IMG/VR virus record: IMGVR_UViG_3300030109_001138
Span: 1 to 28,596 of that record
Strand: one strand, 5' to 3'
Origin: a virus
DNA length: 28,596 nt
The notes under the pieces are model-generated. The model had not been told where the DNA came from. It saw nothing but the letters and a program-made list of their open reading frames with translations, and ran no database searches. A program made the translations under genes and the position numbers. Of the stretch, positions 1-28,596 are shown piece by piece (position 1 is the first letter of the stretch; the number at the start of each line of letters is the position of its first letter).

Positions 1-101
1 CGGTTCAGCAACCTGCAGGAACTACAGTTGCAGGTCAAACTAACTATTCATGGTCACAATGGGTTTTAAGTAATTCAGCACCTAATTTTGAAAGTTGTCA
101 T
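1..101. repeat. Left copy of the terminal redundancy (circular genome join)
   Basis: This segment is repeated at the right edge (28496-28596) with one difference, G at 3 against A at 28498. The reading frame of the large tail gene continues exactly across the join: the start at 27625 and the codons ending at 2582 are in one frame when 28596 is followed by 102. The simplest reading is that the contig is a closed or circularly permuted genome of about 28,495 bp. The repeat length, near 100 bp, is what an assembler overlap would leave, so it need not be a packaged terminal repeat. Confidence 0.93.
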
Positions 102-2747: not shown

Positions 2748-4130
2748 ATGTCACAAGAAAAAACAGTCAAATTAAATATAGATGCAAAAGATGCTTTAAA
2801 GAGATTAGAAGCAGTTGAAAAGGAATTAGCTAATATAGGTAAAACTGCAAAAAAAACAGAACAAGGTACAAGTGCATTAGCAACAGGGTTTAGAGGTATT
2901 GGTTTAGCATGGAAAGCTATCGGAATTGGTGCAGTTATAAGTGCGTTGCAATTTCTTGCAGATAAATTTAGTGCTAATCAAGAAATAATGGACAAGGTAA
3001 ATATAGCAAGTGCAGTATTTGGTGATGTGATGACTAAAATAGGTACTGTTGTAATTTCTGTTGTAAAAGGTTTAGGTTTATTAGGCAAGGCAGTTGGTAA
3101 GGTTTTAAAGGGCGAATTTAAAGAAGCAGGAGAAATAGCTAAACAATCTTTTGATGGTGTAAAAGAAGCAGTTGTTGGTAACAATGAAAGTTTTTCGGAT
3201 TTTATTAATAATGCTAAAGAAAGTGCAAAAGAAAGTGTAAAAGTTGCAAAAGCTATGAATAGTATGCGTAATGAAGTAAAGTTAGCAGATGCACAACAAA
3301 GACAATTGCAATTAACATACCAAAGAGATGCAGAGTTGCAAAGGCAAATTAGAGATGATACAAGTTTAACTATTCAAGAACGTATAGCTGCTAATGAAGA
3401 ACTGGGTCGAATACTAGATGAGCAATTTTCTAAAGAAGAAGCATTAGCACAAAAAAAAATAGACTTAGCAGCATTAGAATTATCAAGGAATAAAACAAAC
3501 ATTGATTTGCAAGTTGCATTAATAGATGCTAAAACAGAATTAGCAGACTTAGAAGAAAGAATTACAGGTCAGCGTTCAGAGCAATTAACTAATTTAACTG
3601 CACTAGAAGAAGAATATCAAAAAAGTATAGAAACAACAGGTGATACAGTTGTTGCTACTGCAAAAGCAGGTGTAGTAATTACTAAATTAACAGAAGACCA
3701 AAAAAGAGATATTATCTCGAATTCATTAGGGCAAATAGCAGGTGCATTAGGTGAAAATAGTAAAGCAGGAAAATCATTAGCAATAGCACAAGCTTTAATG
3801 GACACTTATGCAGGTGCTAATAAAGCTCTTGCACAAGGTGGTATATTTGGTGCTATTTCAGCTGCTGGTATTGTAGCTGCTGGTCTTGCTAATGTTGCTA
3901 GAATAAAATCAACAAACCCTGAAACGGGTGCAGGTGGTGGTGGTGGTGGTGCTGATACTAATGTACCAACACCTACAGGATTAGGTGGTGCAGGATTAAT
4001 ACCTAATTTAGAAAACATTAATCAAAATGACTTAGGAACACCAGAACCAGTACAGGCATTTGTAGTAGAAAATGATATATCAAATGCTCAGGCATTACAA
4101 GAAGAATTAGAAATACAAGCTACATTATAA
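2748..4130 (+). CDS. Putative tail tape measure protein (short)
   Basis: The 460-residue protein begins with a Lys/Glu-rich coiled-coil segment (MSQEKTVKLNIDAKDALKRL) followed by two hydrophobic Gly/Ala/Val-rich segments at about residues 46-70 and 93-115. A long Gln/Glu/Ala/Leu-rich helical region occupies about 155-290. A second Ala/Gly-rich hydrophobic stretch at about 335-385 leads into a poly-Gly tract near residue 395. Alternating helical and hydrophobic segments of this kind are typical of tape measure proteins, which set tail length and may insert into the host membrane. At roughly 0.15 nm per residue it would suit a short tail near 70 nm. It lies after the hub gene instead of before it, which is unusual. 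Confidence 0.75.
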   Translation: MSQEKTVKLNIDAKDALKRLEAVEKELANIGKTAKKTEQGTSALATGFRGIGLAWKAIGIGAVISALQFLADKFSANQEIMDKVNIASAVFGDVMTKIGTVVISVVKGLGLLGKAVGKVLKGEFKEAGEIAKQSFDGVKEAVVGNNESFSDFINNAKESAKESVKVAKAMNSMRNEVKLADAQQRQLQLTYQRDAELQRQIRDDTSLTIQERIAANEELGRILDEQFSKEEALAQKKIDLAALELSRNKTNIDLQVALIDAKTELADLEERITGQRSEQLTNLTALEEEYQKSIETTGDTVVATAKAGVVITKLTEDQKRDIISNSLGQIAGALGENSKAGKSLAIAQALMDTYAGANKALAQGGIFGAISAAGIVAAGLANVARIKSTNPETGAGGGGGGADTNVPTPTGLGGAGLIPNLENINQNDLGTPEPVQAFVVENDISNAQALQEELEIQATL

Positions 4131-8303: not shown

Positions 8304-10112
8304 ATGAATTTAGACTTAATAAAATTATCACATTATAATATACCACATCTAGTTGAGAAACATAATCAAGATTGGGTAAGTTTTGGTGAAGATAATCTCT
8401 ATCCAAACTATCTATTAGACCTATTCTTAGGAAGTGCTATCAATGGTGCTTTAATTAAGTCAATAGGTGCTATGATATATGGTGAGGGTTTGGCTGCCAC
8501 TAATGTTGATGATAATACAGACACAAAAGAATCATATTTACGATTAACAGAACTTTTAGAAAATTCTGATGATGATGTGCTAAAAGACCTAGCTATGGAC
8601 TTAAAGCTATTCGGGGGGTGTTATGTGAATGTCATTTGGTCAAGAGATAGAAGCAAGATTGCTAAAATACTTCATATACCTGCACAATACATTAGAAGTG
8701 GTAAAATGATAGATGGTGAAATAGACACATATTATTATTCTGCTGATTGGTCTAAATGGAAAAAAGGCGAATACAGACCTAGACCATATCCTGCTTTCAA
8801 TACAGAAGATAGAACACAAGCAAGTCAAATCTTAATGATTAGAGATAAAAACCCTGCATTATTTTATGGCTTTGCACCTGATTATGTGGCTGCTACAGAT
8901 TATATTCAATTAGACCTTGAGATTGCTCAATTTCATTTGTCTAATATATCAAATGGTATGTTTCCATCTATGGCTATTAATTTTGCAAATGGTGTACCTA
9001 CAGAAGAAGAAAGAAGAACTATTGAAAGACAAATAAACCAAAAGTTTACTTCTAGTGGTAATGCAGGAAAAATACTAATTACTTTCAATGATGGAAAAGA
9101 ATCAGCACCAGAAATAGTACCAATAGATAGTAATGGTGCTTCTGAAAAATATCAATTTTTATCTACAGAAGTTGTAAACAAAGTATTATCAGGGCATCGA
9201 GTTACAAGTCCTTTATTATTTGGAATACGTGCTGAGGGTGGTGGATTAGGTTCAAATGCCGATGAATTAAGAGATTCTTACAGTTTATTTAACAATACAG
9301 TTATAATACCTTTTCAAAACGTGCTTTTAAAAGGTTTAAACAAGATATTTAAAGTAAACGATATAAACCTTGATTTGTACTTCAAAACGCTTAAACCTGC
9401 TGATTTCATTGATTTGGAGGTTACTAAAACACAAAGTGAAGAAGAACAAGAAAAAGAGGGTGTATCAAAAGAAGATGTTAATTCTGATGATTTTGTTGAA
9501 ATGTCTGATGATGATTTGAATATAATCTTTGAAGAATTACATGGTGAGCAAATAGATTCTGATGTTTGGGAAATAGTAGATGAAAAAGATGAGGGTGAAG
9601 TTGATGATTATGAAGAATGGGCAAAAAGGTTAATAAAAGAAAACAAAGAAAAGTTTGCAGATGAAATAAGAAGCAAAGAAGATTTGCCCAGTCAATTAGA
9701 CAAATCATTTTATAGAGTACGTTTTAAGTATATTAAAAAGAGTAGAAAACCTAGCAAATCAACTAGAACATTTTGCAAAAATATGATGCGATTAGCTAGG
9801 GCAGGTTTTGTTTACAGAATAGAAGATATTGACAAGGCAAGTAGAGAGGGCGTAAATAAGCAATTAGGTCATAAAGGAAAACCTTATGACTTGTTTAGGT
9901 TTAAAGGTGGTGTATATTGCAGACACGCTTGGAAAATTATTTTATATAGACTAAAAGATGGAACAGAATTAAGAGATGCTGAAAGTATGGATGACTACAA
10001 AAAAACAGATAGCATACCTAAAAGCTATACACCAAAACCTAGAGGAATTAAAGATGCAGTAACAGCACCAGAAAATATGCCTAATCAAGGTCATTATCCT
10101 GGCGTAAAATAA
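8304..10112 (+). CDS. Portal protein with extra C-terminal domain
   Basis: The 602-residue protein has the build of phage portals, the 12-subunit ring through which DNA enters the head. About residues 1-380 hold portal features: SFGEDNLYPNYLLDLF, KLFGGCYVNVIW, the Pro/Tyr-rich region around WSKWKKGEYRPRPYP, and the long helix region up to GSNADELRDSYSLFNNTVI. A very acidic linker follows (about 385-455). The last 150 residues form a separate basic domain with STRTFCKNMMRLARAGFVYR, GVNKQLGHKGKPYDLF and RFKGGVYCRHAWK. Similar cysteine- and histidine-bearing segments occur in structural proteins of other Bacteroidota phages, as I recall. It lies after the capsid gene, whereas the portal usually precedes it. 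Confidence 0.82.
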   Translation: MNLDLIKLSHYNIPHLVEKHNQDWVSFGEDNLYPNYLLDLFLGSAINGALIKSIGAMIYGEGLAATNVDDNTDTKESYLRLTELLENSDDDVLKDLAMDLKLFGGCYVNVIWSRDRSKIAKILHIPAQYIRSGKMIDGEIDTYYYSADWSKWKKGEYRPRPYPAFNTEDRTQASQILMIRDKNPALFYGFAPDYVAATDYIQLDLEIAQFHLSNISNGMFPSMAINFANGVPTEEERRTIERQINQKFTSSGNAGKILITFNDGKESAPEIVPIDSNGASEKYQFLSTEVVNKVLSGHRVTSPLLFGIRAEGGGLGSNADELRDSYSLFNNTVIIPFQNVLLKGLNKIFKVNDINLDLYFKTLKPADFIDLEVTKTQSEEEQEKEGVSKEDVNSDDFVEMSDDDLNIIFEELHGEQIDSDVWEIVDEKDEGEVDDYEEWAKRLIKENKEKFADEIRSKEDLPSQLDKSFYRVRFKYIKKSRKPSKSTRTFCKNMMRLARAGFVYRIEDIDKASREGVNKQLGHKGKPYDLFRFKGGVYCRHAWKIILYRLKDGTELRDAESMDDYKKTDSIPKSYTPKPRGIKDAVTAPENMPNQGHYPGVK

Positions 10113-10120
10113 AATAAATT

Positions 10121-10735
10121 ATGGCTGAATTTAACGATACAATACAACATATTTGCTTCATATCAAGCACAAGATTAAAAAAAGATTCTGCATTAGGTGG
10201 TTCAGTAGATGACAACCTTATTATGCCTTATATCTTACTAGCTCAAGATATGAACATACTACCGATATTAGGAACAGACCTAGATGCTAAACTAAAAAAT
10301 GATATATTTGAACAATCACAATCACCATTTCCTGATATACCAGGTGCATATAAAACTTTATTAGAAAACTATGTACAACCCTGCCTTGTACAATTTGCAT
10401 TTTCTACTCTTGCACCTTTTCTTAGACTGCGTTTTAGTAACAATTCTGTTGTGGTAATGGGTGCTACAGAACAATCATCTTCTGCTACTTATGATGATAT
10501 AAAACCACTAATGGACACTGCAACTGATGCTGCTGAATTTTACCGACAAAGAATGATTGACTATTTAAGAAATAACTCTAGCTCATTTCCTGAATATACA
10601 AGCAATAGTGGTTCAGACCTCAATCCAACAACTAATAACTATTTTGCAGGAATACAATTAGAACCAACAACGCCAATGAGCAATAGATTAAAAAGTTTCT
10701 TGCAAGGTGCAAACATTACAACTTATGGGTGTTAA
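10121..10735 (+). CDS. Head-tail connector (DUF6712-like)
   Basis: The 204-residue, mostly helical protein contains DDNLIMPYILLAQDMNILPI followed by LGTDLDAKLKN, a pattern I associate with the DUF6712 group of Bacteroidota phages. These are thought to be head-completion or adaptor proteins. The middle has helices LLENYVQPCLVQFAFSTLAP and the C-terminal 50 residues are low-complexity Asn/Ser/Thr. It starts eight bases after the portal stop, the usual site of the adaptor that docks under the portal ring. Family naming is from memory and not from a search. Confidence 0.6.
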   Translation: MAEFNDTIQHICFISSTRLKKDSALGGSVDDNLIMPYILLAQDMNILPILGTDLDAKLKNDIFEQSQSPFPDIPGAYKTLLENYVQPCLVQFAFSTLAPFLRLRFSNNSVVVMGATEQSSSATYDDIKPLMDTATDAAEFYRQRMIDYLRNNSSSFPEYTSNSGSDLNPTTNNYFAGIQLEPTTPMSNRLKSFLQGANITTYGC

Positions 10736-10856
10736 GAGGCGTGAATATCCTGCGAGTAAGGAGAATTTTAAGAAATTAAAAAACTATATTAAAAAATTAA
10801 ATTATGGCTGGACAAAGACTAACAGACAAGACAGCACTAGAACAACAAGCAGGTAG
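10725..10856 (+). CDS. Possible small basic protein, 43 aa
   Basis: An ATG at 10725 overlaps the connector stop by 11 bases. The ORF (MGVKRREYPASKENFKKLKN then a Lys/Thr/Arg-rich tail) ends inside the next gene at 10856. It fills the 68-base gap between the two larger genes. The 53-base overlap with the gene at 10804 counts against it, and composition is the only support. Low confidence. Confidence 0.3.
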   Translation: MGVKRREYPASKENFKKLKNYIKKLNYGWTKTNRQDSTRTTSR

Positions 10857-11337
10857 TGGTGATTTGCTAATGGTTGTAGATGTATCAGACACTACGGGTA
10901 GTGCTGAGGGTACATCTAAACAAATGGATTTTAAATATGTTATTCAAACAGATAAAATTTCTGTTTCTAATGCAGAAATACAAGCACTAGATTCAACGCC
11001 TAAAACATTAGTTGGTGCATTAAGTGGTTATATGGTTACGCCTTTAAGTGTTACATTTTTAGTTACTTATGCTGCTTCTACAGATAGTGCTAACAAGAAT
11101 ATATATATTGGATATGATGATTCCACAACTACAAACTATTGGGATTATTCAGAACGCTTTATGAGTGGTCAAACAACTGATAACTCTTATGTATTTGGTG
11201 GTAAAATGGCTAGTAGATACCCAATGCGTACATCATCTATTTTAAACGCACCTTTTATTATTTGGTCTAATGGTGCTTTTAATGGTGGTTTTACAATGGA
11301 TGTATATATAACATACGCATATACAAAAGTATTATAA
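10804..11337 (+). CDS. Putative virion fibre-like or decoration protein
   Basis: The 177-residue protein begins MAGQRLTDKTALEQQAGSGD, then LMVVDVSDTTGSAEGTSKQM, an N-terminal pattern I associate with phage head-fibre or tail-fibre proteins of Bacteroidota phages. The remainder is a beta-rich, Tyr/Ser/Thr-rich domain (about 60-177) without cysteines. The stop codon overlaps the ATG of the next gene by one base. The start at 10804 follows an A/T-rich leader. A surface-exposed virion protein is the favoured reading. Whether it decorates head or tail cannot be told from the sequence. Confidence 0.5.
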   Translation: MAGQRLTDKTALEQQAGSGDLLMVVDVSDTTGSAEGTSKQMDFKYVIQTDKISVSNAEIQALDSTPKTLVGALSGYMVTPLSVTFLVTYAASTDSANKNIYIGYDDSTTTNYWDYSERFMSGQTTDNSYVFGGKMASRYPMRTSSILNAPFIIWSNGAFNGGFTMDVYITYAYTKVL

Positions 11338-17887: not shown

Positions 17888-19203
17888 AAATAGGAACAGA
17901 TTTTAGTGGTATAGGTTCACCAGAACAGGCATTAATTAAACTAGGAATAGAACACAAATCAATGTTTGCTTGTGATGTTGATAAATATGCTAAAAAAAGT
18001 TATTTAGCTAATTATAAAACAGAAAATTTTTATGATGATATTACTACTAGAAACCATAAAGAAACTCCTTATGTTGATTTGTATGTTGCAGGTTTTCCTT
18101 GTCAAGCATTTTCAATGGCTGGTAAAAGATTAGGTTTTGAAGATACTAGAGGTACTTTATTTTATGATTTGTTAAAATACCTAAAAGCTAAAAAACCCAA
18201 ATACTTTATACTTGAAAATGTAAAAGGTTTATTAAGTAACAATAATGGTAGAACATTTTTAACTATATTAGATTGTTTAGCTAAAACAGTCAATGGTCAA
18301 TACTCTTTTACAAACTATGAAGATGGTTTGAATTACTATGTATATTATAAAGTTTTAAATACTAAAGATTATGGAATACCACAAAATAGAGAAAGAGTTT
18401 TTATAGTAGGTTTTCGTGATGAAAAACATTCTTTTAAATTTCCTAAAAAAATACCATTAGAATTAAAATTAAAAGACTTATTGCAAGACAATGTGAATAA
18501 CAAATACTATTTAAGTGATGATTATGTAAAAAAATTAGAAGAATATAACGAAAGAAACAAAAAAAAAGGTAATGGCTTTAGAGCTAAATTTCATAATCCT
18601 GAAAATGACATAATGAGTACTCTAAAAATTAGTGGAGATAGTAAAGATGACTTAATTAAATTAACTAGATTAGAAGATTTGCAATTAAAAGTAAAAAAGC
18701 GAATTAATGAAACACCAAAAGAAATAAACGAATTTTTAAAAAAACATAAAAAAAATAGCATAAAAGAAATTGCAGAAAAATTACAAATACCTAAAACACA
18801 ATTAGAGCATTATTTTAGAACTGATAAATATAGAGCAATACCATGTCCTAAAATTTGGAAAAAATTAAAAGAGCTATTAAAATTTGATGATACTTATGAT
18901 GATGCAGTAATAGAATATGAGGAAAAATTATCTACTTTTGAAACTGCTCAAAGATTATATGATGCTAATGGTATATCAGCTACTTTGCAAACTAATGAGG
19001 GTAATTATTATAAAACATATAAAAGAATAAGAAGACTAACTCCTTTGGAATGTTTTAAATTACAGGGTTTTCCAGATAGCTTTCATAAAAAATGTGTTGA
19101 TTCAGGTTTAAGTGATACACAACTATATAAACAAGCAGGAAATTCAATTACAGTAGATGTTATGTCTTATCTAATAAAAGAAATATTAATTAATGAAAGT
19201 TAA
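17881..19203 (+). CDS. C5 cytosine-specific DNA methyltransferase
   Basis: The 440-residue protein carries the ordered motifs of 5-methylcytosine enzymes: motif I TDFSGIGSPEQA (about 6-17), motif IV GFPCQAFS with catalytic Cys74, motif VI LENVKGL (about 111-117), motif VIII PQNRERVFIVGF (about 167-178), and motif IX/X regions RRLTPLECFKLQGFPDSF (about 384-401) and QAGNSIT (about 418-424). Between VIII and IX lies the target-recognition region with an insert at about 282-345 that looks like a helix-turn-helix (NSIKEIAEKLQIPKTQLEHY). No cognate restriction enzyme is visible nearby, so protection from host restriction is the likely purpose. It overlaps the next gene by 11 bases. Confidence 0.9.
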   Translation: MLKIGTDFSGIGSPEQALIKLGIEHKSMFACDVDKYAKKSYLANYKTENFYDDITTRNHKETPYVDLYVAGFPCQAFSMAGKRLGFEDTRGTLFYDLLKYLKAKKPKYFILENVKGLLSNNNGRTFLTILDCLAKTVNGQYSFTNYEDGLNYYVYYKVLNTKDYGIPQNRERVFIVGFRDEKHSFKFPKKIPLELKLKDLLQDNVNNKYYLSDDYVKKLEEYNERNKKKGNGFRAKFHNPENDIMSTLKISGDSKDDLIKLTRLEDLQLKVKKRINETPKEINEFLKKHKKNSIKEIAEKLQIPKTQLEHYFRTDKYRAIPCPKIWKKLKELLKFDDTYDDAVIEYEEKLSTFETAQRLYDANGISATLQTNEGNYYKTYKRIRRLTPLECFKLQGFPDSFHKKCVDSGLSDTQLYKQAGNSITVDVMSYLIKEILINES

Positions 19204-21704: not shown

Positions 21705-22842
21705 AACAACGAATGTATTTAACAAGGCGTATAGGTCTAAAACTAGAATAACGTGCTTACAGGGGGGTACGCGTTCTAGCAAGACCTATTCGCTTTGTCA
21801 AATGGTTATTGTAAAAGCACTAGAAGAACCAGACAAAGTATTTAGTATTATTCGTAAAACATTACCTGCGTGTAAGGGTAGCGTGTATAGAGATTTTATA
21901 AATATCTTAAAAGAACTAGAATTATATTCTGTTGATAATCACAACAAATCAGACCTATCATACAATTTAAATAATTGTCTTATCGAATTTCTTTCAGTGG
22001 ATAACCCAGAAAAATTAAAAGGTAGGAAAAGAAATTATGCGTGGCTCAATGAGGCAACAGAATTCACCTATGAAGATTATCAACAAATAATTTTTAGAAC
22101 TACAGAACAAATATACTTAGATTATAATCCTTCAGACCCGTACTCATGGATATATGAAAAGGTTTTAACTAGAGATGATTGCACCTTTATAAAATCAACA
22201 TATAAAGCTAATCCTTTTTTAGATGAAGATACTATTGCAGAAATTGAAAGACTAAAAGATATAGACCCTGATTATTGGCGTGTTTATGGATTAGGTGAAA
22301 TTGGCTCTATACAAACAATGATATTCAGGAACTTTAATTTAGTTGATGATGTGCAAGGTAAATTGCTTGGTTTTGGTTTAGATTTTGGCTTTACGAATTC
22401 ACCTACGGCATTAGTAGAAGTAAGACAATTAGATGATAACCTATATATCAAAGAACTGCTATATGAAAAGAGATTAACAAATACAGACCTTGCAAATAAA
22501 CTTAAAGAATTTGGTATTGATAGACAAACAGAAATTGTAGGTGATAGTGCAGAACCAAAATCAATAGAAGAAATTTACAGACAAGGTTTTAACATTAAAC
22601 CTGCTAAAAAAGGTGCAGGTATTCACTTAGGACTTGATATTATGAGGCGTTATAAACTACATATTACAAAAGATAGTTTGAATGCAATAAAAGAATTTAG
22701 GGGTTACAAATGGTCTACAGATAAAAATGGTGATGTATTAAACACGCCTGTAAAAGTCAATGACCACTTAATTGATGCAACTAGATACTTATGCTTAAAT
22801 AAATTATCTGTTAATCACTCAGGCAAATACTATATATTATGA
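21646..22842 (+). CDS. Terminase large subunit
   Basis: The DNA-packaging motor: ATPase domain with Walker A LQGGTRSSKTYS, Walker B NYAWLNEATEF and coupling motif IYLDYNPSDPYSWI, then a nuclease domain with aspartates in LGFGLDFGFT, EIVGDSAEP and KVNDHLIDATRY. The protein is near the 400 residues usual for this group. The reading frame opens with GTG at 21646 (398 aa) but has no ATG before the Walker A region. TTG at 21682 is a plausible alternative, giving a shorter overlap with the small subunit. Its stop overlaps the next methyltransferase ATG by four bases. Confidence 0.93.
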   Translation: MVVSLSQILKLKLLTRVKIKTTNVFNKAYRSKTRITCLQGGTRSSKTYSLCQMVIVKALEEPDKVFSIIRKTLPACKGSVYRDFINILKELELYSVDNHNKSDLSYNLNNCLIEFLSVDNPEKLKGRKRNYAWLNEATEFTYEDYQQIIFRTTEQIYLDYNPSDPYSWIYEKVLTRDDCTFIKSTYKANPFLDEDTIAEIERLKDIDPDYWRVYGLGEIGSIQTMIFRNFNLVDDVQGKLLGFGLDFGFTNSPTALVEVRQLDDNLYIKELLYEKRLTNTDLANKLKEFGIDRQTEIVGDSAEPKSIEEIYRQGFNIKPAKKGAGIHLGLDIMRRYKLHITKDSLNAIKEFRGYKWSTDKNGDVLNTPVKVNDHLIDATRYLCLNKLSVNHSGKYYIL

Positions 22843-23588
22843 AATTATACAATGGAGATTGTTTAGATGTTATGTGTTCAATAGCTGATAAAAGTATTGA
22901 TGCAATTATAACAGACCCCCCTTATGGAACAACAGCTTGTAAGTGGGATTCTGTAATTCCTTTTGAACCTATGTGGACACAATTAAACAGAATTATTAAA
23001 GATAATGGTGCAATCGTTTTATTTGGTAGTGAGCCTTTTAGTAGTGCTTTACGAATGAGTAATATAAAAAACTACAAATATGATTGGATATGGATAAAAA
23101 AAAGATATAATAGTGGATTTGCTCACGCTAAAAATAAACCTTTAAAAAAGAATGAAAATCTTTGTGTTTTTTCATTATCTTCAATGGGTCACAAAATACA
23201 ACTCGGAAACAAAAGAATGACTTATTATCCACAAGGACTTAAAGAAATACATCTAGAAAGAAATAATAAAACTTTTCAAAATGCTTCTTTTGGAAAAAGA
23301 CCATCTTCAAGACCTACAGTGCAAAAGTATAAGGGTTATCCAAATAATATATTAAAATATGATGTTCAACAAAAAGGGAAATTTTTACACCCAACACAAA
23401 AGCCTGTTGCATTAATGGAATACTTAATTAAAACATATACCAACGAACAAGAAACTGTCTTGGACTTTACAATGGGTTCAGGCACAACAGGTGTTGCTTG
23501 TTGTAATACAAATAGAGATTTTATTGGTATTGAACGAGATAAAAACTATTTCAAAATAGCAGAACAAAGAATAAATAATTTATTATGA
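22839..23588 (+). CDS. DPPY-type DNA methyltransferase, first tandem copy
   Basis: The 249-residue amino-methyltransferase (N6-adenine or N4-cytosine) begins with motif IV ITDPPYGTTACKWDSVI (DPPY at 26-29) and ends with motif I LDFTMGSGTTGVACCN near residue 211. This IV-to-I order is that of the beta class. The central part (about 90-180), with SGFAHAKNKPLKKNENLCVF and MTYYPQGLKE, should recognise the target. It is coupled to the terminase gene by a four-base overlap (ATGA) and to the second copy in the same way. The role is probably to protect phage DNA from host restriction. Confidence 0.88.
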   Translation: MKLYNGDCLDVMCSIADKSIDAIITDPPYGTTACKWDSVIPFEPMWTQLNRIIKDNGAIVLFGSEPFSSALRMSNIKNYKYDWIWIKKRYNSGFAHAKNKPLKKNENLCVFSLSSMGHKIQLGNKRMTYYPQGLKEIHLERNNKTFQNASFGKRPSSRPTVQKYKGYPNNILKYDVQQKGKFLHPTQKPVALMEYLIKTYTNEQETVLDFTMGSGTTGVACCNTNRDFIGIERDKNYFKIAEQRINNLL

Positions 23589-24307
23589 AACTATACAATG
23601 GAGATTGTTTAGAAGTAATGAAGTCAATACAAGACAAAAGCATTGATGCTATTATAACCGACCCACCATACGGCACAACAGCCTGTAAGTGGGATAGTGT
23701 AATTGACTTTAAATTAATGTGGAAACAATTAAATAGAATAATAAAAGACAATGGTGCAATTGTGTTGTTTGGTTCTGAACCATTTTCAAGTCATTTGAGA
23801 ATGTCAAATATAAAGAATTATAAATATGATTGGATTTGGAAAAAAACAAAGGCTGGAAATTTTGCCCAATGTAGAAAAAACCCAATGAAGTATCATGAAA
23901 TAATATCTGTATTTTATAATAAATTTCCTACATTCAATTTGTTTAATTTAAGAAAATTAGAAAAACCAATTTTAAATAGTCGAAAAAATAAAGGTGCAAA
24001 ACTTGGTCATGTAAGTAATGATAGTAAAAAGTATTATCAAACTGAAACAGGTTATCACAATTCTATTATAAAATTTAGCAACAAGTCAGGAAAAAATTAT
24101 TCTTATCATCCCACACAAAAACCTGTAGCACTAATGGAATACTTAATAAAAACTTATACAAATGAATTAGAAACTGTATTAGACTTTACTATGGGTAGTG
24201 GTTCTACAGGTGTTGCTTGTTGCAATACTAACAGAGATTTTATAGGGATTGAACTTGACAAAGAGTATTTTAAAATAGCAGAACAAAGAATAAAAAACGA
24301 ATTATAA
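23585..24307 (+). CDS. DPPY-type DNA methyltransferase, second tandem copy
   Basis: The 240-residue paralogue of the gene before it has almost the same first 85 residues (YNGDCLEVM, TDPPYGTTACKWDSVI, NGAIVLFGSEPFSS) and the same C-terminal region (HPTQKPVALMEYLIKTYTNE, LDFTMGSGSTGVACCN). The middle (about 90-170), including KAGNFAQCRKNPMKYHEIIS, is quite different, so its target sequence is probably different. Many identical residues use different codons from copy one, so the pair is old, or the second was acquired from a relative. The next gene starts after 19 bases with the AT-rich motif between them. Confidence 0.88.
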   Translation: MKLYNGDCLEVMKSIQDKSIDAIITDPPYGTTACKWDSVIDFKLMWKQLNRIIKDNGAIVLFGSEPFSSHLRMSNIKNYKYDWIWKKTKAGNFAQCRKNPMKYHEIISVFYNKFPTFNLFNLRKLEKPILNSRKNKGAKLGHVSNDSKKYYQTETGYHNSIIKFSNKSGKNYSYHPTQKPVALMEYLIKTYTNELETVLDFTMGSGSTGVACCNTNRDFIGIELDKEYFKIAEQRIKNEL

Positions 24308-24308
24308 A

Positions 24309-24321
24309 CTTTTATATTTAT
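24309..24321 (+). promoter_or_regulatory. Recurring AT-rich motif before the tail gene block
   Basis: CTTTTATATTTAT ends five bases before the ATG at 24327. It is the fourth copy of the element at 4144, 5179 and 7598. Here it marks the start of the tail gene block after the methyltransferase genes. Confidence 0.4.
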
Positions 24322-24326
24322 TAGTA

Positions 24327-24908
24327 ATGAAAGAGGTTAAATTAACTATACCAGATAATTGGTCTGATATAACAATAGAAACGTATCAGAAATATGTTAA
24401 AATACAAGAGGGCAAAGGAAGTGAGAAAAACAAGGTTGTAAAGAGTTTGGCGTTATTATGTAACACTACACCTTTTGTTGTAAAGAAAATGGATTACAAG
24501 GACTTATTAGAGATAATGAGCATAATTAAAACCATGATTGATACAGAACCAAAAGATGAAGAATTTAGAAAGACTTTTATATTCAAAGAAGAAGAATATG
24601 GTTTTGTACCTAATTTGAGTAAATTAAGCACTGGAGAATATATAGACTTAGAAACTTATTGCAAAGAACCTATTGAGAATCTACATATTATCATGTCGAT
24701 ACTTTATAGAAAGATTACTTTTAAAAGGAATGAAAGATATGCTATTGAAAATTATGACCCTGATGAGTTTAAAGAAGAACTATTTAAGGACTGTCCAATG
24801 GATATAGCTCTTTCTAGCTTAGGTTTTTTTTTGACTTTAGGAAGCGTATTAGCAAAGACTTCGCAACGCTTTTTACAAGTACAGGAAATGAAACCACAAA
24901 AGCAGTAA
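24327..24908 (+). CDS. Probable tail assembly chaperone, frame-0 product
   Basis: The 193-residue helical protein starts MKEVKLTIPDNWSDITIETY and has SLALLCNTTPFVVKKMDYKD, LSTGEYIDLETYCKEPIENL and IIMSILYRKITFKRNERYAI. No enzymatic motif is seen. Its place ahead of other tail genes, the overlapping second frame and a slippery T run near its 3' end are what is seen in tail assembly chaperone pairs (gpG and gpGT in lambda). In frame 0 it ends VQEMKPQKQ at 24908; a -1 slip would give a fusion of about 248 residues. Length and helical content are in range for the family. Confidence 0.6.
   Translation: MKEVKLTIPDNWSDITIETYQKYVKIQEGKGSEKNKVVKSLALLCNTTPFVVKKMDYKDLLEIMSIIKTMIDTEPKDEEFRKTFIFKEEEYGFVPNLSKLSTGEYIDLETYCKEPIENLHIIMSILYRKITFKRNERYAIENYDPDEFKEELFKDCPMDIALSSLGFFLTLGSVLAKTSQRFLQVQEMKPQKQ
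24824..24832 (+). other. Candidate -1 ribosomal slippery site (nine T residues)
   Basis: The frame-0 codons GGT TTT TTT TTG contain the heptamer T-TTT-TTT, a classic -1 slippery sequence. The -1 frame is closed by a TAG at 24815-24817 and then open until 25072. So the overlap region opens only seven bases before the slippery run, as expected for programmed frameshifting. Confidence 0.6.
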
Positions 24909-24910
24909 CA

Positions 24911-25072
24911 ATGCAGTCAAAGTGGGGGTGGTACAATATCATCTATTCTTTGTCTAATAGCATTTTAGATATTGAAAAAATTACTAGAATACCAATTTTA
25001 GAAGTATTAACATATCTTGCATATAGTCAAGATTATAATAATAAGAAAAGAAATAATTATGAAAACTTTTAA
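24911..25072 (+). CDS. Tail assembly chaperone second frame (53 aa as a separate ORF)
   Basis: In the -1 frame relative to the preceding gene, the sequence is open from 24818 to 25072. Read from its own ATG at 24911 it gives MQSKWGWYNIIYSLSNSILD followed by IEKITRIPILEVLTYLAYSQ. The WGWYxxIYxLxxxxLxxIxxIxxxPxxEVLTYL pattern fits the C-terminal part of tail assembly chaperones in Bacteroidota phages, as I recall. It is probably made as the tail of a frameshifted fusion. Separate initiation at 24911 cannot be excluded. Its last 14 bases overlap the next ATG at 25059. Confidence 0.6.
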   Translation: MQSKWGWYNIIYSLSNSILDIEKITRIPILEVLTYLAYSQDYNNKKRNNYENF

Positions 25073-25595
25073 TAATGCAGTTGCTTTTTTTTCCACTATT
25101 GCAGAAAAGCATCATGAGATAAATTTTTTTCACTGTGGAGAATTAGATGAAGTAGATATTAGAAAACTGGGTGCAACTGATTATGTTATATTATATTTAG
25201 AACCATCAAATGCAGTAATTGATTCAGGTTACATGACTTATTCTTTCAATTTATATATCTTAGATAAAATTAATGAAACTACTGAAAATATAAAACCTGC
25301 TTCACCTGTTGGTCAATATGCAGTTGAAAACAAATTACTTAGCAGACCACTGCAAGGGCGTATTAATGCGTATTCAGAAAACCTATTAATTCTAAAAGAT
25401 GTAATTGCAGAATTTAAACAAAATTTAAATACTGCATCTTGGGTTGATGATGAAGTATATTTAGAGCTACCAATAACTGCAGAACCTTTTACTGCACGTT
25501 TTAATAATTTATTGACAGGATGGGTTGCACCAATAACATTTCAAGTTAATAATAAAAACAATTTATGTATCGCACCAATTACTGCAAATAGCTAA
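25059..25595 (+). CDS. Putative tail terminator or neck protein
   Basis: The 178-residue protein begins MKTFNNAVAFFSTIAEKHHE. The frame extends upstream to a TTG at 25017, but that extension would lie inside the chaperone frame, and the ATG at 25059 is a better start. The protein alternates helix and strand (FHCGELDEVDIRKL, then YVILYLEPSNAVIDSGYMTY and SFNLYILDKI), similar to the alpha-beta build of tail terminator proteins that cap the tail tube. Its stop overlaps the next ATG by one base. Its tail-module position supports the reading; the exact role is not certain. Confidence 0.5.
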   Translation: MKTFNNAVAFFSTIAEKHHEINFFHCGELDEVDIRKLGATDYVILYLEPSNAVIDSGYMTYSFNLYILDKINETTENIKPASPVGQYAVENKLLSRPLQGRINAYSENLLILKDVIAEFKQNLNTASWVDDEVYLELPITAEPFTARFNNLLTGWVAPITFQVNNKNNLCIAPITANS

Positions 25596-26137
25596 TGGAA
25601 TTTACAAACACAATACAAGCATTACAAAAATTAGGCTCTAATGTAGTAACTGAGGGTAAGTCTATTCTTAAACAGAAGAAAAAAACCACAAGTGGAAATA
25701 CACTCTATAATGAGTTTGATTATATGGTAACTGCATCAAAAGATTCTGTTACATTAGAATTTGAATTTGGAAATGCTGATGATTATTGGATGTTTGTTGA
25801 TGAGGGTGTGAGAGGTGCAGGTGGTTATAAAGGAAGTGGGAAAATGCGTGGACAGGGTAGTCCTTTTAAGTATAGTACAAAAATGCCTCCTAGAAGATTC
25901 ATTGACCAATGGATAGTTAGAAAACCATTAAAGGCTGCTAGAGATAAAAGTGGGCGTTTTATAAAAAGAAAGAGTTTAGCATATTTAATACAACGTGCTA
26001 TTTATCAAAGGGGGTTAGAAAGAACACAATTCTTTAGTAAACCTTTTACACAACAATTAAAAAAACAAACAGATAAAATAACAGAAGCATTTGCAGATGA
26101 TATAGAAGCTATGCTAGAACAAACATTAAAAGATTAA
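25595..26137 (+). CDS. HK97 gp10-like tail completion protein
   Basis: The 180-residue basic protein has the pattern of HK97 gp10-type head-tail joining proteins: an N-terminal helix, then VTLEFEFGNADDYWMFVDEG with a Val-Asp-Glu-Gly turn and VRGAGG, then FKYSTKMPPRRFIDQWIVRK, and a C-terminal region with SLAYLIQRAIYQRGLERTQF. In the family this protein links the connector to the tail. Here it lies beside the presumed terminator gene instead of beside the head connector at 10121. The start overlaps the preceding stop by one base; the next gene begins three bases after its stop. Confidence 0.62.
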   Translation: MEFTNTIQALQKLGSNVVTEGKSILKQKKKTTSGNTLYNEFDYMVTASKDSVTLEFEFGNADDYWMFVDEGVRGAGGYKGSGKMRGQGSPFKYSTKMPPRRFIDQWIVRKPLKAARDKSGRFIKRKSLAYLIQRAIYQRGLERTQFFSKPFTQQLKKQTDKITEAFADDIEAMLEQTLKD

Positions 26138-26140
26138 ATT

Positions 26141-27625
26141 ATGGCGTTATCTTGGAAGCAATATCCTGTTGAGGAATCAGACAAAGTACCTGTATTAACT
26201 AATTGGACACCACTAATAGGATGGATGCTATACCAAAGTGCTGTTGCTACTTATTTTTACCACAAACTAATTGTAGAAGTTAGATTAGATGATGCTAGTG
26301 GAACATTAATAGCTAAAATAAAACAAAGAAGAAATGGATATAGCGTGGATGTATCAGGTAATGCTGCTAGAGCTTTTTTTGATTTGAGAGATGTAGCAAA
26401 TAGTGTTTTAGTAGATACTGTATTTGACCAAAATGATACGGGAGTACCTTTTAGAGCTATCCATAAAGTAGGTAAAAACACATCAACAAAACCCTTTAGT
26501 GTTAATGGTGATAATACAAATGACAAAACACAAATACAATTATTACACGTTAAGGGGTTTGAAGAATACTCATTATCAGCTTCTGCTTCACCTACAGAAC
26601 AATCAGGCACATCAGTTACAGATGTTGAATTTTTTACGTCTGCTTCATTACCTTTAATGACTGCAAGAAATACTGACCCTGACTACATACAAAGTAACGC
26701 TTTTAATGTGTTTAGTTTAAGCTCATCAACTAAAAGGTTTTTAAGTGATTTGGAACAATCAGCAACAGGCACAATAGTTGGTAGCTCAACTGAAACTAAT
26801 CCTGGTGAAGTTTACAGAAATTATGTACAAAGTTTAGGTGATTATCACACAGTAGGTTTTTTAAATGGAACAACAGATTTTAGTGGTAATTGCTATAAAA
26901 TACAAGTTACATATTATGATGGTTCAAACCAATTAACACAAAATTCTTTCCTTAATAGTGATAATGATTCTGGAACTGATAGGGGTGGAAAAGCACCTAA
27001 TCTAGTTTCAACAGACCCTCAAAGAATTTTATACTTTGGTTGTGGAACAGGTAATTTAACCTTTCAATCTGTTCATGTTACTTCTAGACCTAATAATGCT
27101 AATAATTCAGGTTGGACACATTACACAATACAAGCATTAGATGGTAGTGATTCGGCAGTATCAGCTTTATATTATTTCATTAATCAAGATGGTAGTTGTA
27201 AAGGTTTTAAAATTAGAAGATTAGCTTTTAGAAATAGCTTAGGGTGTTATGATTATTTCAATTTCAAAATGAAGTCAACATCTACAATAGAAGTTACACG
27301 TGATAATTATAACTCAATGCTTGGAACATTCAATAAAAGTAGATGGAGATATAACAATACTCAAAGAGGTAAAACCACAAGACAAACTACTGCTATTTTA
27401 AAAGAAACATTACAAACAGATTGGATAAGTGAGCAAGATGCAAACCTATTAGAGAAACTTGTGTATTCAACAGATGTTTATATATTAGAAAATTTAGATA
27501 CAGACTTTACAGAGGGTGTAGTTATAACAGATTCATCATTTGTAAAAAAGACTGTTGCTAATGACAAGTTAATTCAATATACAATCAATATAGAATACGC
27601 AAATCCAATAAATACAAATAGCTAA
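26141..27625 (+). CDS. Large tail structural protein, 494 aa
   Basis: The protein has a first part (about 1-75) reading as beta strands (VPVLTNWTPLIGWMLYQSAV, FYHKLIVEVRLDDASGTLIA). A Ser/Thr/Asn-rich middle follows, and a C-terminal part with GFKIRRLAFRNSLGCYDYFN and WISEQDANLLEKLVYSTDVY. Similar long structural proteins occur beside the hub gene in other Bacteroidota phages, as I recall. It overlaps the hub gene by one base (TAATG). No signal or enzymatic motif is present. A distal tail, baseplate or tail-tip component is likely. Confidence 0.65.
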   Translation: MALSWKQYPVEESDKVPVLTNWTPLIGWMLYQSAVATYFYHKLIVEVRLDDASGTLIAKIKQRRNGYSVDVSGNAARAFFDLRDVANSVLVDTVFDQNDTGVPFRAIHKVGKNTSTKPFSVNGDNTNDKTQIQLLHVKGFEEYSLSASASPTEQSGTSVTDVEFFTSASLPLMTARNTDPDYIQSNAFNVFSLSSSTKRFLSDLEQSATGTIVGSSTETNPGEVYRNYVQSLGDYHTVGFLNGTTDFSGNCYKIQVTYYDGSNQLTQNSFLNSDNDSGTDRGGKAPNLVSTDPQRILYFGCGTGNLTFQSVHVTSRPNNANNSGWTHYTIQALDGSDSAVSALYYFINQDGSCKGFKIRRLAFRNSLGCYDYFNFKMKSTSTIEVTRDNYNSMLGTFNKSRWRYNNTQRGKTTRQTTAILKETLQTDWISEQDANLLEKLVYSTDVYILENLDTDFTEGVVITDSSFVKKTVANDKLIQYTINIEYANPINTNS

Positions 27626-28596
27626 TGAATGTCAGACTTGTAGCATATAGAAAAGCAACCACAACTGCAACCTCAGATAGTACCTATCAACTAGACCTAC
27701 AGGAAGCACCCAACATATCATTAAACTTTCAATTTAGTGATATTAAAGAACCTGAAACTAGAAAAGGTAGTTATTCACAAACTTTTAAATTACCTTTTAC
27801 TGATAATAATAATGAGTTTTTTCAAAATTGGTTTAATGTCAATTTAACAACTTTAGTATTTAGCACAAGAAAAAAATTCAATGCAGTTTTATATGTTGGA
27901 ACTGTACCACAATTTGATGGTTTTATTCAGCTAAAGGCAGTCTATAATAAAGCACAATGTTATGAGGTTGTATTAATGTCTAATACTTCTGATTTGTTTA
28001 GTGCTATTGGTGAGCAAAGACTACAAGATGTTTTTTTAAATACAGATGGTGAAACGTATAGTACAGAATTAGACCACACCTTTAATGAAACTAATGTATT
28101 AAATTCATGGAATGGTAGTAGTAGTGCTTTTCAAAATACATCAGGCGTTTCATTAAGAGATACAGATATTAATGTGCAAAAGGTTATGTATCCAATGTCC
28201 TTAACAAAACCAAACTTTTATTATGACCCTAATGATACAACAAATGGTGGTCACAATAAATATCTTTTAATGGATTCAGGAGATATTGCAGGTATGGGTG
28301 TTGATGATGCCTTGAATTATATTGTGCCTTTAACACAACTAAGACCATCAATCCAAATAAAAACATTATTCAAATTAATTTTAGCAAAGGCAGGATTTTC
28401 TTATACATCAACTTTTATAGATGGTTCATATTTTGGTAAAATATATATGACTACAGGTAATGAATTAGCTGGTGCAGGTTTACCCACATCAAGTACGATT
28501 CAGCAACCTGCAGGAACTACAGTTGCAGGTCAAACTAACTATTCATGGTCACAATGGGTTTTAAGTAATTCAGCACCTAATTTTGAAAGTTGTCAT
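27625..28596 (+). CDS. Tail hub/fibre-like protein, 5' part (continues at 102)
   Basis: From ATG 27625 the frame is open to the end of the window and resumes at base 102 to 2582, giving about 1150 residues. The N terminus (MNVRLVAYRKATTTATSDST, then NISLNFQFSDIKEPETRKGS and YSQTFKLPFTDNNNEFFQNW) is a pattern I know from large tail proteins of Bacteroidota phages, where it precedes a hub-like beta domain. TAATG coupling to the gene before it marks the tail operon. It is followed by the tape measure gene. The single mismatch between the terminal copies changes Ile to Val within this gene. Confidence 0.8.
   Translation, partial: MNVRLVAYRKATTTATSDSTYQLDLQEAPNISLNFQFSDIKEPETRKGSYSQTFKLPFTDNNNEFFQNWFNVNLTTLVFSTRKKFNAVLYVGTVPQFDGFIQLKAVYNKAQCYEVVLMSNTSDLFSAIGEQRLQDVFLNTDGETYSTELDHTFNETNVLNSWNGSSSAFQNTSGVSLRDTDINVQKVMYPMSLTKPNFYYDPNDTTNGGHNKYLLMDSGDIAGMGVDDALNYIVPLTQLRPSIQIKTLFKLILAKAGFSYTSTFIDGSYFGKIYMTTGNELAGAGLPTSSTIQQPAGTTVAGQTNYSWSQWVLSNSAPNFESCH
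28496..28596. repeat. Right copy of the terminal redundancy
   Basis: Identical to bases 1-101 except for A at 28498 against G at 3. The mismatch lies at the outer end of the overlap, as would happen if reads differ there or the assembler ended in a variant. See the entry at 1-101. Confidence 0.93.

Follow-up and report, generated by a model that had tools for sequence, protein, structure and literature searches.

A near-invariant T run very probably fuses two overlapping reading frames in a widespread phage gene, with RNA polymerase slippage as a candidate mechanism

Analysis of a 28,596-nucleotide stretch of viral DNA (a whole virus record with 30% G+C, hereafter the window) and of its relatives revealed a recoding site that is widely conserved and whose fusion product is unannotated; judged from sequence comparison, we take this site to be real. 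Recoding at a run of T very probably fuses two overlapping open reading frames (ORFs), making the fusion the conserved product and carrying translation in the -1 frame through the overlap. Standard decoding would yield a 193-residue G-like protein, and a minority of expression events would enter the -1 frame at the nine-T run and yield a 248-residue fusion, in which 168 residues of G are joined to an 80-residue T-like domain. By analogy with phage lambda, the fusion is presumably the minor of the two products. Which machine slips, RNA polymerase or the ribosome, is the most interesting remaining point, and we regard it as nearly even; there is about an even chance that, in this widespread family of phages of Bacteroidota-type bacteria, the G/GT-type fusion arises when RNA polymerase slips on a near-invariant run of at least nine T and not by ribosomal frameshifting.

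The first, frame-0 ORF of the window, as read from the sequence, lies on the plus strand at 24327-24908, encodes the proposed short product and has homologues in viral contigs, in the Nonlabens (Persicivirga) phages P12024L and P12024S and in Flavobacteriia contigs. The putative slip site within it is a run of nine T at 24824-24832, phased GGT TTT TTT TTG, which holds the in-phase heptamer T_TTT_TTT at 24824-24830. In the -1 frame the last stop codon upstream of the run is a TAG at 24815-24817 and the next one downstream is a TAA at 25070-25072. The -1 frame extension (24830-25072, 80 codons and the stop) contains the segment IPILEVLTYLAY and carries FFxxFR, WGWY and LxxL motifs, and it overlaps frame 0 in a dual-coded stretch at 24833-24908. 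Two bases past the first stop codon of frame 0, an ATG that is a secondary start at most opens a 53-residue ORF in the same -1 frame (24911-25072). Re-reading the sequence reproduced every position given in an earlier note on this DNA, namely those of the ORF, the T run and its phase, the TAG and the open -1 frame, together with the segment and the length of the fusion. The T run is not a chance occurrence, since it is the only run of nine or more T on the plus strand of the window, since such runs are rare in other genes (three on the sense strand of 1,713 other genes of related loci, compared with approximately 20 expected from synonymous shuffling), and since synonymous change fell to zero at the six codons surrounding it (codons 166-171; gene average 0.36 in 67 sequences of the window's clade). 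In this gene, by comparison, 293 of the 294 distinct sites among the matches listed carry a run of at least nine T.

The relatives were collected by several routes. A protein search identified 80 close relatives in viral contigs at 78-99% identity, and the cultured relatives were P12024L and P12024S at approximately 28% identity; a further 63 loci were gathered around P12024L. A search of bacterial genomes returned five contigs with homologues, including Winogradskyella, Galbibacter and Flavobacterium, and among cultured phages no credible sequence homologue was found beyond these two. Three profile searches, two with the second domain and one with the first, reached at least 600 matches each, indicating that the family is larger than the sample. 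Because the search peptides were back-translated degenerately, sites containing TTC were as findable as sites containing TTT. Profiles of the first (G) and second (T) domains, built without the residues of the site, were then scanned against every ORF of every locus; at least 371 loci, holding 294 distinct sites among the matches listed, contained both domains. The recoding gene is thus widespread, common to a large group of viruses infecting Bacteroidota-type bacteria. The homologous pairs in P12024L (genes 40 and 41) and P12024S (genes 38 and 39; PHROGs 32199 and 38404) likewise have nine T and an open -1 frame, with the run one base out of phase from that of the window (CTT TTT TTT TAT). 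Both pairs are annotated as two separate hypothetical proteins with no recoding noted, and for the P12024L locus (23946-24640) GenBank and PHROGs alike treat the halves as separate.

The evidence for a frame change came from the arrangement and the conservation of the two frames. At all 371 loci among the matches listed, T occupied the -1 frame relative to G, and the overlap contained an in-phase T_TTT_TTT. The distance from the site to the frame-0 stop ranged from 55 to 271 nt, and at 204 of the 294 distinct sites this stop fell past the WGWY motif, leaving T embedded in the first ORF; at 178 of the 294 there was no ATG, GTG or TTG between the run and WGWY. At the sites behind these two counts, T could be made only by a change of frame. 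In the window's clade the run and WGWY were separated by exactly 33 residues in 72 of 72 members, with the frame-0 stop at three different positions. In an alignment of 19 diverse members, the -1 frame F-F-x-x-F-R immediately after the run, W-G-W-Y and L-x-x-L were invariant, and across the bases that encode F-F-x-x-F-R frame 0 kept F-F-x-x-L-G. Both frames were conserved across the site at approximately 28% identity in G, and synonymous variation was reduced at codons 171-190, within the dual-coded overlap. These results bear out the earlier note, which had proposed programmed -1 recoding that joins the two ORFs and a comparison with related phages: the T run was kept, the -1 frame was open and residues of both frames were conserved. 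No homologue without the overlap, and none lacking the T run with both frames intact, was present in the 371 loci among the matches listed. Since in most members the first ORF encloses the second domain, ordinary gene calling would miss it there, and many phage genomes are probably without an annotation for a possibly essential assembly protein. A site of at least nine T combined with the two profiles provides a simple rule for finding this domain.

The earlier note had called the event a programmed -1 frameshift of the lambda type. Its frame change and fusion are strongly supported by the 371 loci; as for its ribosomal nature, the dependence of the pattern on homopolymer length leaves slippage by RNA polymerase about as likely. 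If RNA polymerase added one U while transcribing nine or more T, the downstream sequence would be placed in the -1 frame, and since this extra U and a ribosomal -1 step give the identical fusion (GGT TTT TTT TTT GAC...), the protein evidence is neutral with respect to mechanism. Genes with programmed transcriptional slippage (Thermus dnaX with A9, the mxiE T run, insertion-sequence transposases) resemble the present one in having approximately nine or more A or T in no fixed phase and two products, with a single-base insertion leading to the -1 frame (PMC1088944, PMC3711429, PMC5574713). Insertions by RNA polymerase at A/T runs mostly add a single base and become exponentially more frequent as the run lengthens (PMC5574713), runs of nine are a known slippage length (PMC1088944), and mxiE slippage involves Tn with n > 8 (PMC3711429). 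At the 294 distinct sites among the matches listed, the run comprised nine T in 267, ten in 24, eleven in two and eight in one; its first T occupied codon position 1 at 13 sites, position 2 at 200 and position 3 at 81. A homopolymer of the length and phase independence associated with transcriptional slippage was therefore present at 293 of 294 sites and in all three phases. On the basis of these sequence patterns we slightly favor insertion of one U by RNA polymerase over the ribosome alone, at roughly even odds of being correct, and both machines may contribute to the slip.

In the reading that is purely ribosomal, P- and A-site tRNA-Phe would slip one base back on T_TTT_TTT, as in lambda G/GT, on an mRNA that always contains nine U; we judge this quite possible, at a little under an even chance. 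It accounts for the in-phase heptamer at all 371 loci among the matches listed and for its retention at the only site with fewer than nine T (eight T, in locus L203), but every run of nine T contains an in-phase T_TTT_TTT whatever its phase. Run length is itself informative mainly in two of the three phases, because in the commonest context (V/L/I-F-F-Y/W) the heptamer and the amino acids force nine T. Two or more T followed the pair of TTT codons in 80 of the 81 sites with one T before it, compared with only nine of the 200 sites with two T before it. The two less common phases contain few independent lineages. At least 12 changes of phase were counted on the G tree, and a phylogeny-aware test of run-length compensation found three to five independent pairs, nearly all in the expected direction, with a sign test of 0.25 that is not significant alone. 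Mixed heptamers (T_TTT_TTA/C/G, A_AAA_AAG or other) never stood alone as the site in the 294, which argues against a purely ribosomal slip, as does the behavior of the Phe codons: the two at the site never switched from TTT to TTC, whereas on the same tree three other conserved Phe codons switched between TTT and TTC at least 40, 25 and 45 times. In FFY and FFW contexts such a switch at the second Phe would be silent in both frames (in the -1 frame, Leu TTA/TTG to CTA/CTG) and would leave T_TTT_TTC, which is absent from the sites. The missing TTC could also reflect an A-site preference of the ribosome for UUU; UUU is decoded through a wobble pair, which may account for the absence of TTC.

RNA structure and the wider use of homopolymers provided further evidence. 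A downstream stem-loop or pseudoknot is a frequent, not obligatory, stimulator of -1 ribosomal frameshifting. Among 80 diverse members, no structure was detected upstream or downstream of the site (mean folding z of approximately 0; pseudoknots fall outside the folding model), and no Rfam match occurred at the site; the absence of a downstream structure counts against the purely ribosomal reading. In the 1,713 other genes, long runs of T and A were increasingly avoided with length (observed/expected 0.31 for T8, 0.25 for T9, 0.23 for A10 and 0.03 for A11 or longer, with no T10 or longer), an avoidance that could arise from replication slippage. In the same genes, stronger avoidance of T runs in ribosome-slippery phases was not seen, and codon-pair noise was present at T5-T6. 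The G/GT ratio is the textbook case of ribosomal recoding. If polymerase slippage is correct, the ratio of the two proteins would instead be set at the mRNA level, and two unrelated machines would serve the same stoichiometric problem. In the literature we found, lambda-type pairs use ribosomal -1 shifting, the sole established mechanism for tail assembly chaperone fusions (PMC5009743), which favors the ribosome, and no report of transcriptional slippage for phage tail chaperones was found.

With regard to function, the earlier note had proposed a tail assembly chaperone pair. Chaperones of the lambda type are required to assemble the tail and are absent from the virion; T binds the tail tube protein, and G the tape measure protein. 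Like lambda G/GT, the present pair consists of a short ORF with a slippery site near its end and an overlapping second ORF in the -1 frame that needs no start of its own (178 of 294 distinct sites lack one), encodes a proposed minor fusion product and lies in the tail module of a dsDNA tailed phage. Unlike lambda G/GT, it has no detectable sequence relation to that pair, and the second domain lies inside the first ORF in two thirds of the distinct sites. The slip heptamer of lambda is the mixed G_GGA_AAG, whereas here a T run is kept at nine or more. The pair likely works like lambda G/GT, the likeness being one of architecture and not of family membership. From the two-part architecture and the tail-module context, G and the fusion are probably a tail assembly chaperone pair; this part of the proposal stands as likely, and homology, fold and strict gene order did not establish it.

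The gene order supports a tail role. It runs from terminase through G/T, a terminator-like gene, a tail completion-like gene and further genes to a tape-measure-like gene at 2748-4130, approximately 6 kb downstream of G/T across the circle. The gene directly after the pair (25059-25595, plus strand) is putatively terminator-like, as its place and ending resemble those of the terminator-like genes that follow the pair in two related loci, L109 and L118 (PHROG 30964 there). The next (25595-26137, plus strand) is tail completion- or neck-like through PHROG 29822, which it shares with the neighbor in L118, itself a weak phrog_5 tail completion match. In lambda G/T follows the major tail protein gene and immediately precedes the tape measure gene, in contrast to the window, where it comes after the terminase gene and two methyltransferase genes. 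The latter are tandem, similar DNA methyltransferase-like genes (22839-23588 and 23585-24307) that separate the G-like gene from the large terminase gene, and P12024L has none in this place. An identical 96-base repeat at both ends of the window (6-101 and 28501-28596) indicates that the record closes on itself and that the ORFs 27625-28596 and 3-2582 form one gene over the junction.

Alternatively, the recoded pair could be the long and short forms of another virion or assembly protein, such as a connector or minor tail protein, which we consider rather unlikely. Its position after terminase and not directly before the tape measure gene fits this alternative, as does the lack of a relation to known chaperones by Pfam, PHROGs, PDB sequence search or hhalign against lambda G and T. 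G itself had no Pfam match and matched only PHROG 32199, of unknown function. The G model (pLDDT 84) had no PDB fold match, and its good matches among predicted viral structures were unnamed phage proteins, including the P12024S homologue; the T-domain model (pLDDT 59) was too poor for a fold search. Against this alternative, size and two-part -1 architecture fit G/GT, the following genes are tail completion-like, and one predicted structure, that of a protein named tail assembly chaperone, matched G weakly. A weak Foldseek match to G was also obtained for gp10 of Flavobacterium phage 6H, near the end of which the frames show no clean -1 arrangement. At that locus (9980-10940, minus strand), gp10 ends RCFFYSTR with T_TTT_TTC, and the 300 unannotated bases that precede gp09 are open in other frames, which carry a T-like segment YFASFQKYL; the explanation is either a sequencing error in a homopolymer or a different form of recoding.

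That the 53-residue ORF is an independent gene, initiated from its own ATG after the first stop with the T run a by-product of Phe codons, is highly improbable: 70 of 72 clade members retain the ATG and P12024L has TAATG at the stop of the first ORF, but the start-codon census and the embedding of T described above exclude it as the main product, the ATG is replaced by TTA in two members of the window's clade (L016 and L155), FFxxFR is conserved upstream of it, and the run-to-WGWY spacing is invariant. The census and the two replaced start codons agree with the earlier note, which had held that this ORF is not mainly an independent gene. In P12024L and in the window's clade, where an ATG lies at the first stop, re-initiation may yield some free T as well.

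A few other homopolymers were observed. Runs of nine A in the window, at 3451-3459 (tape-measure-like gene) and 18559-18567 (DNA methyltransferase-like gene), look like chance occurrences because the shifted frames close quickly. Eight T at 25085-25092, near the start of the gene after the pair (GCT TTT TTT TCC), contain an in-phase T_TTT_TTT that is also present in one close relative, and a -1 frame stop follows soon after. The other sense-strand runs of nine T in the 1,713 genes belonged to only one small gene family, found in L113, L124 and L141, whose gene starts MAYDKKKIYEQAKEMIVKHR and has the run at one position, 63 nt into the gene.
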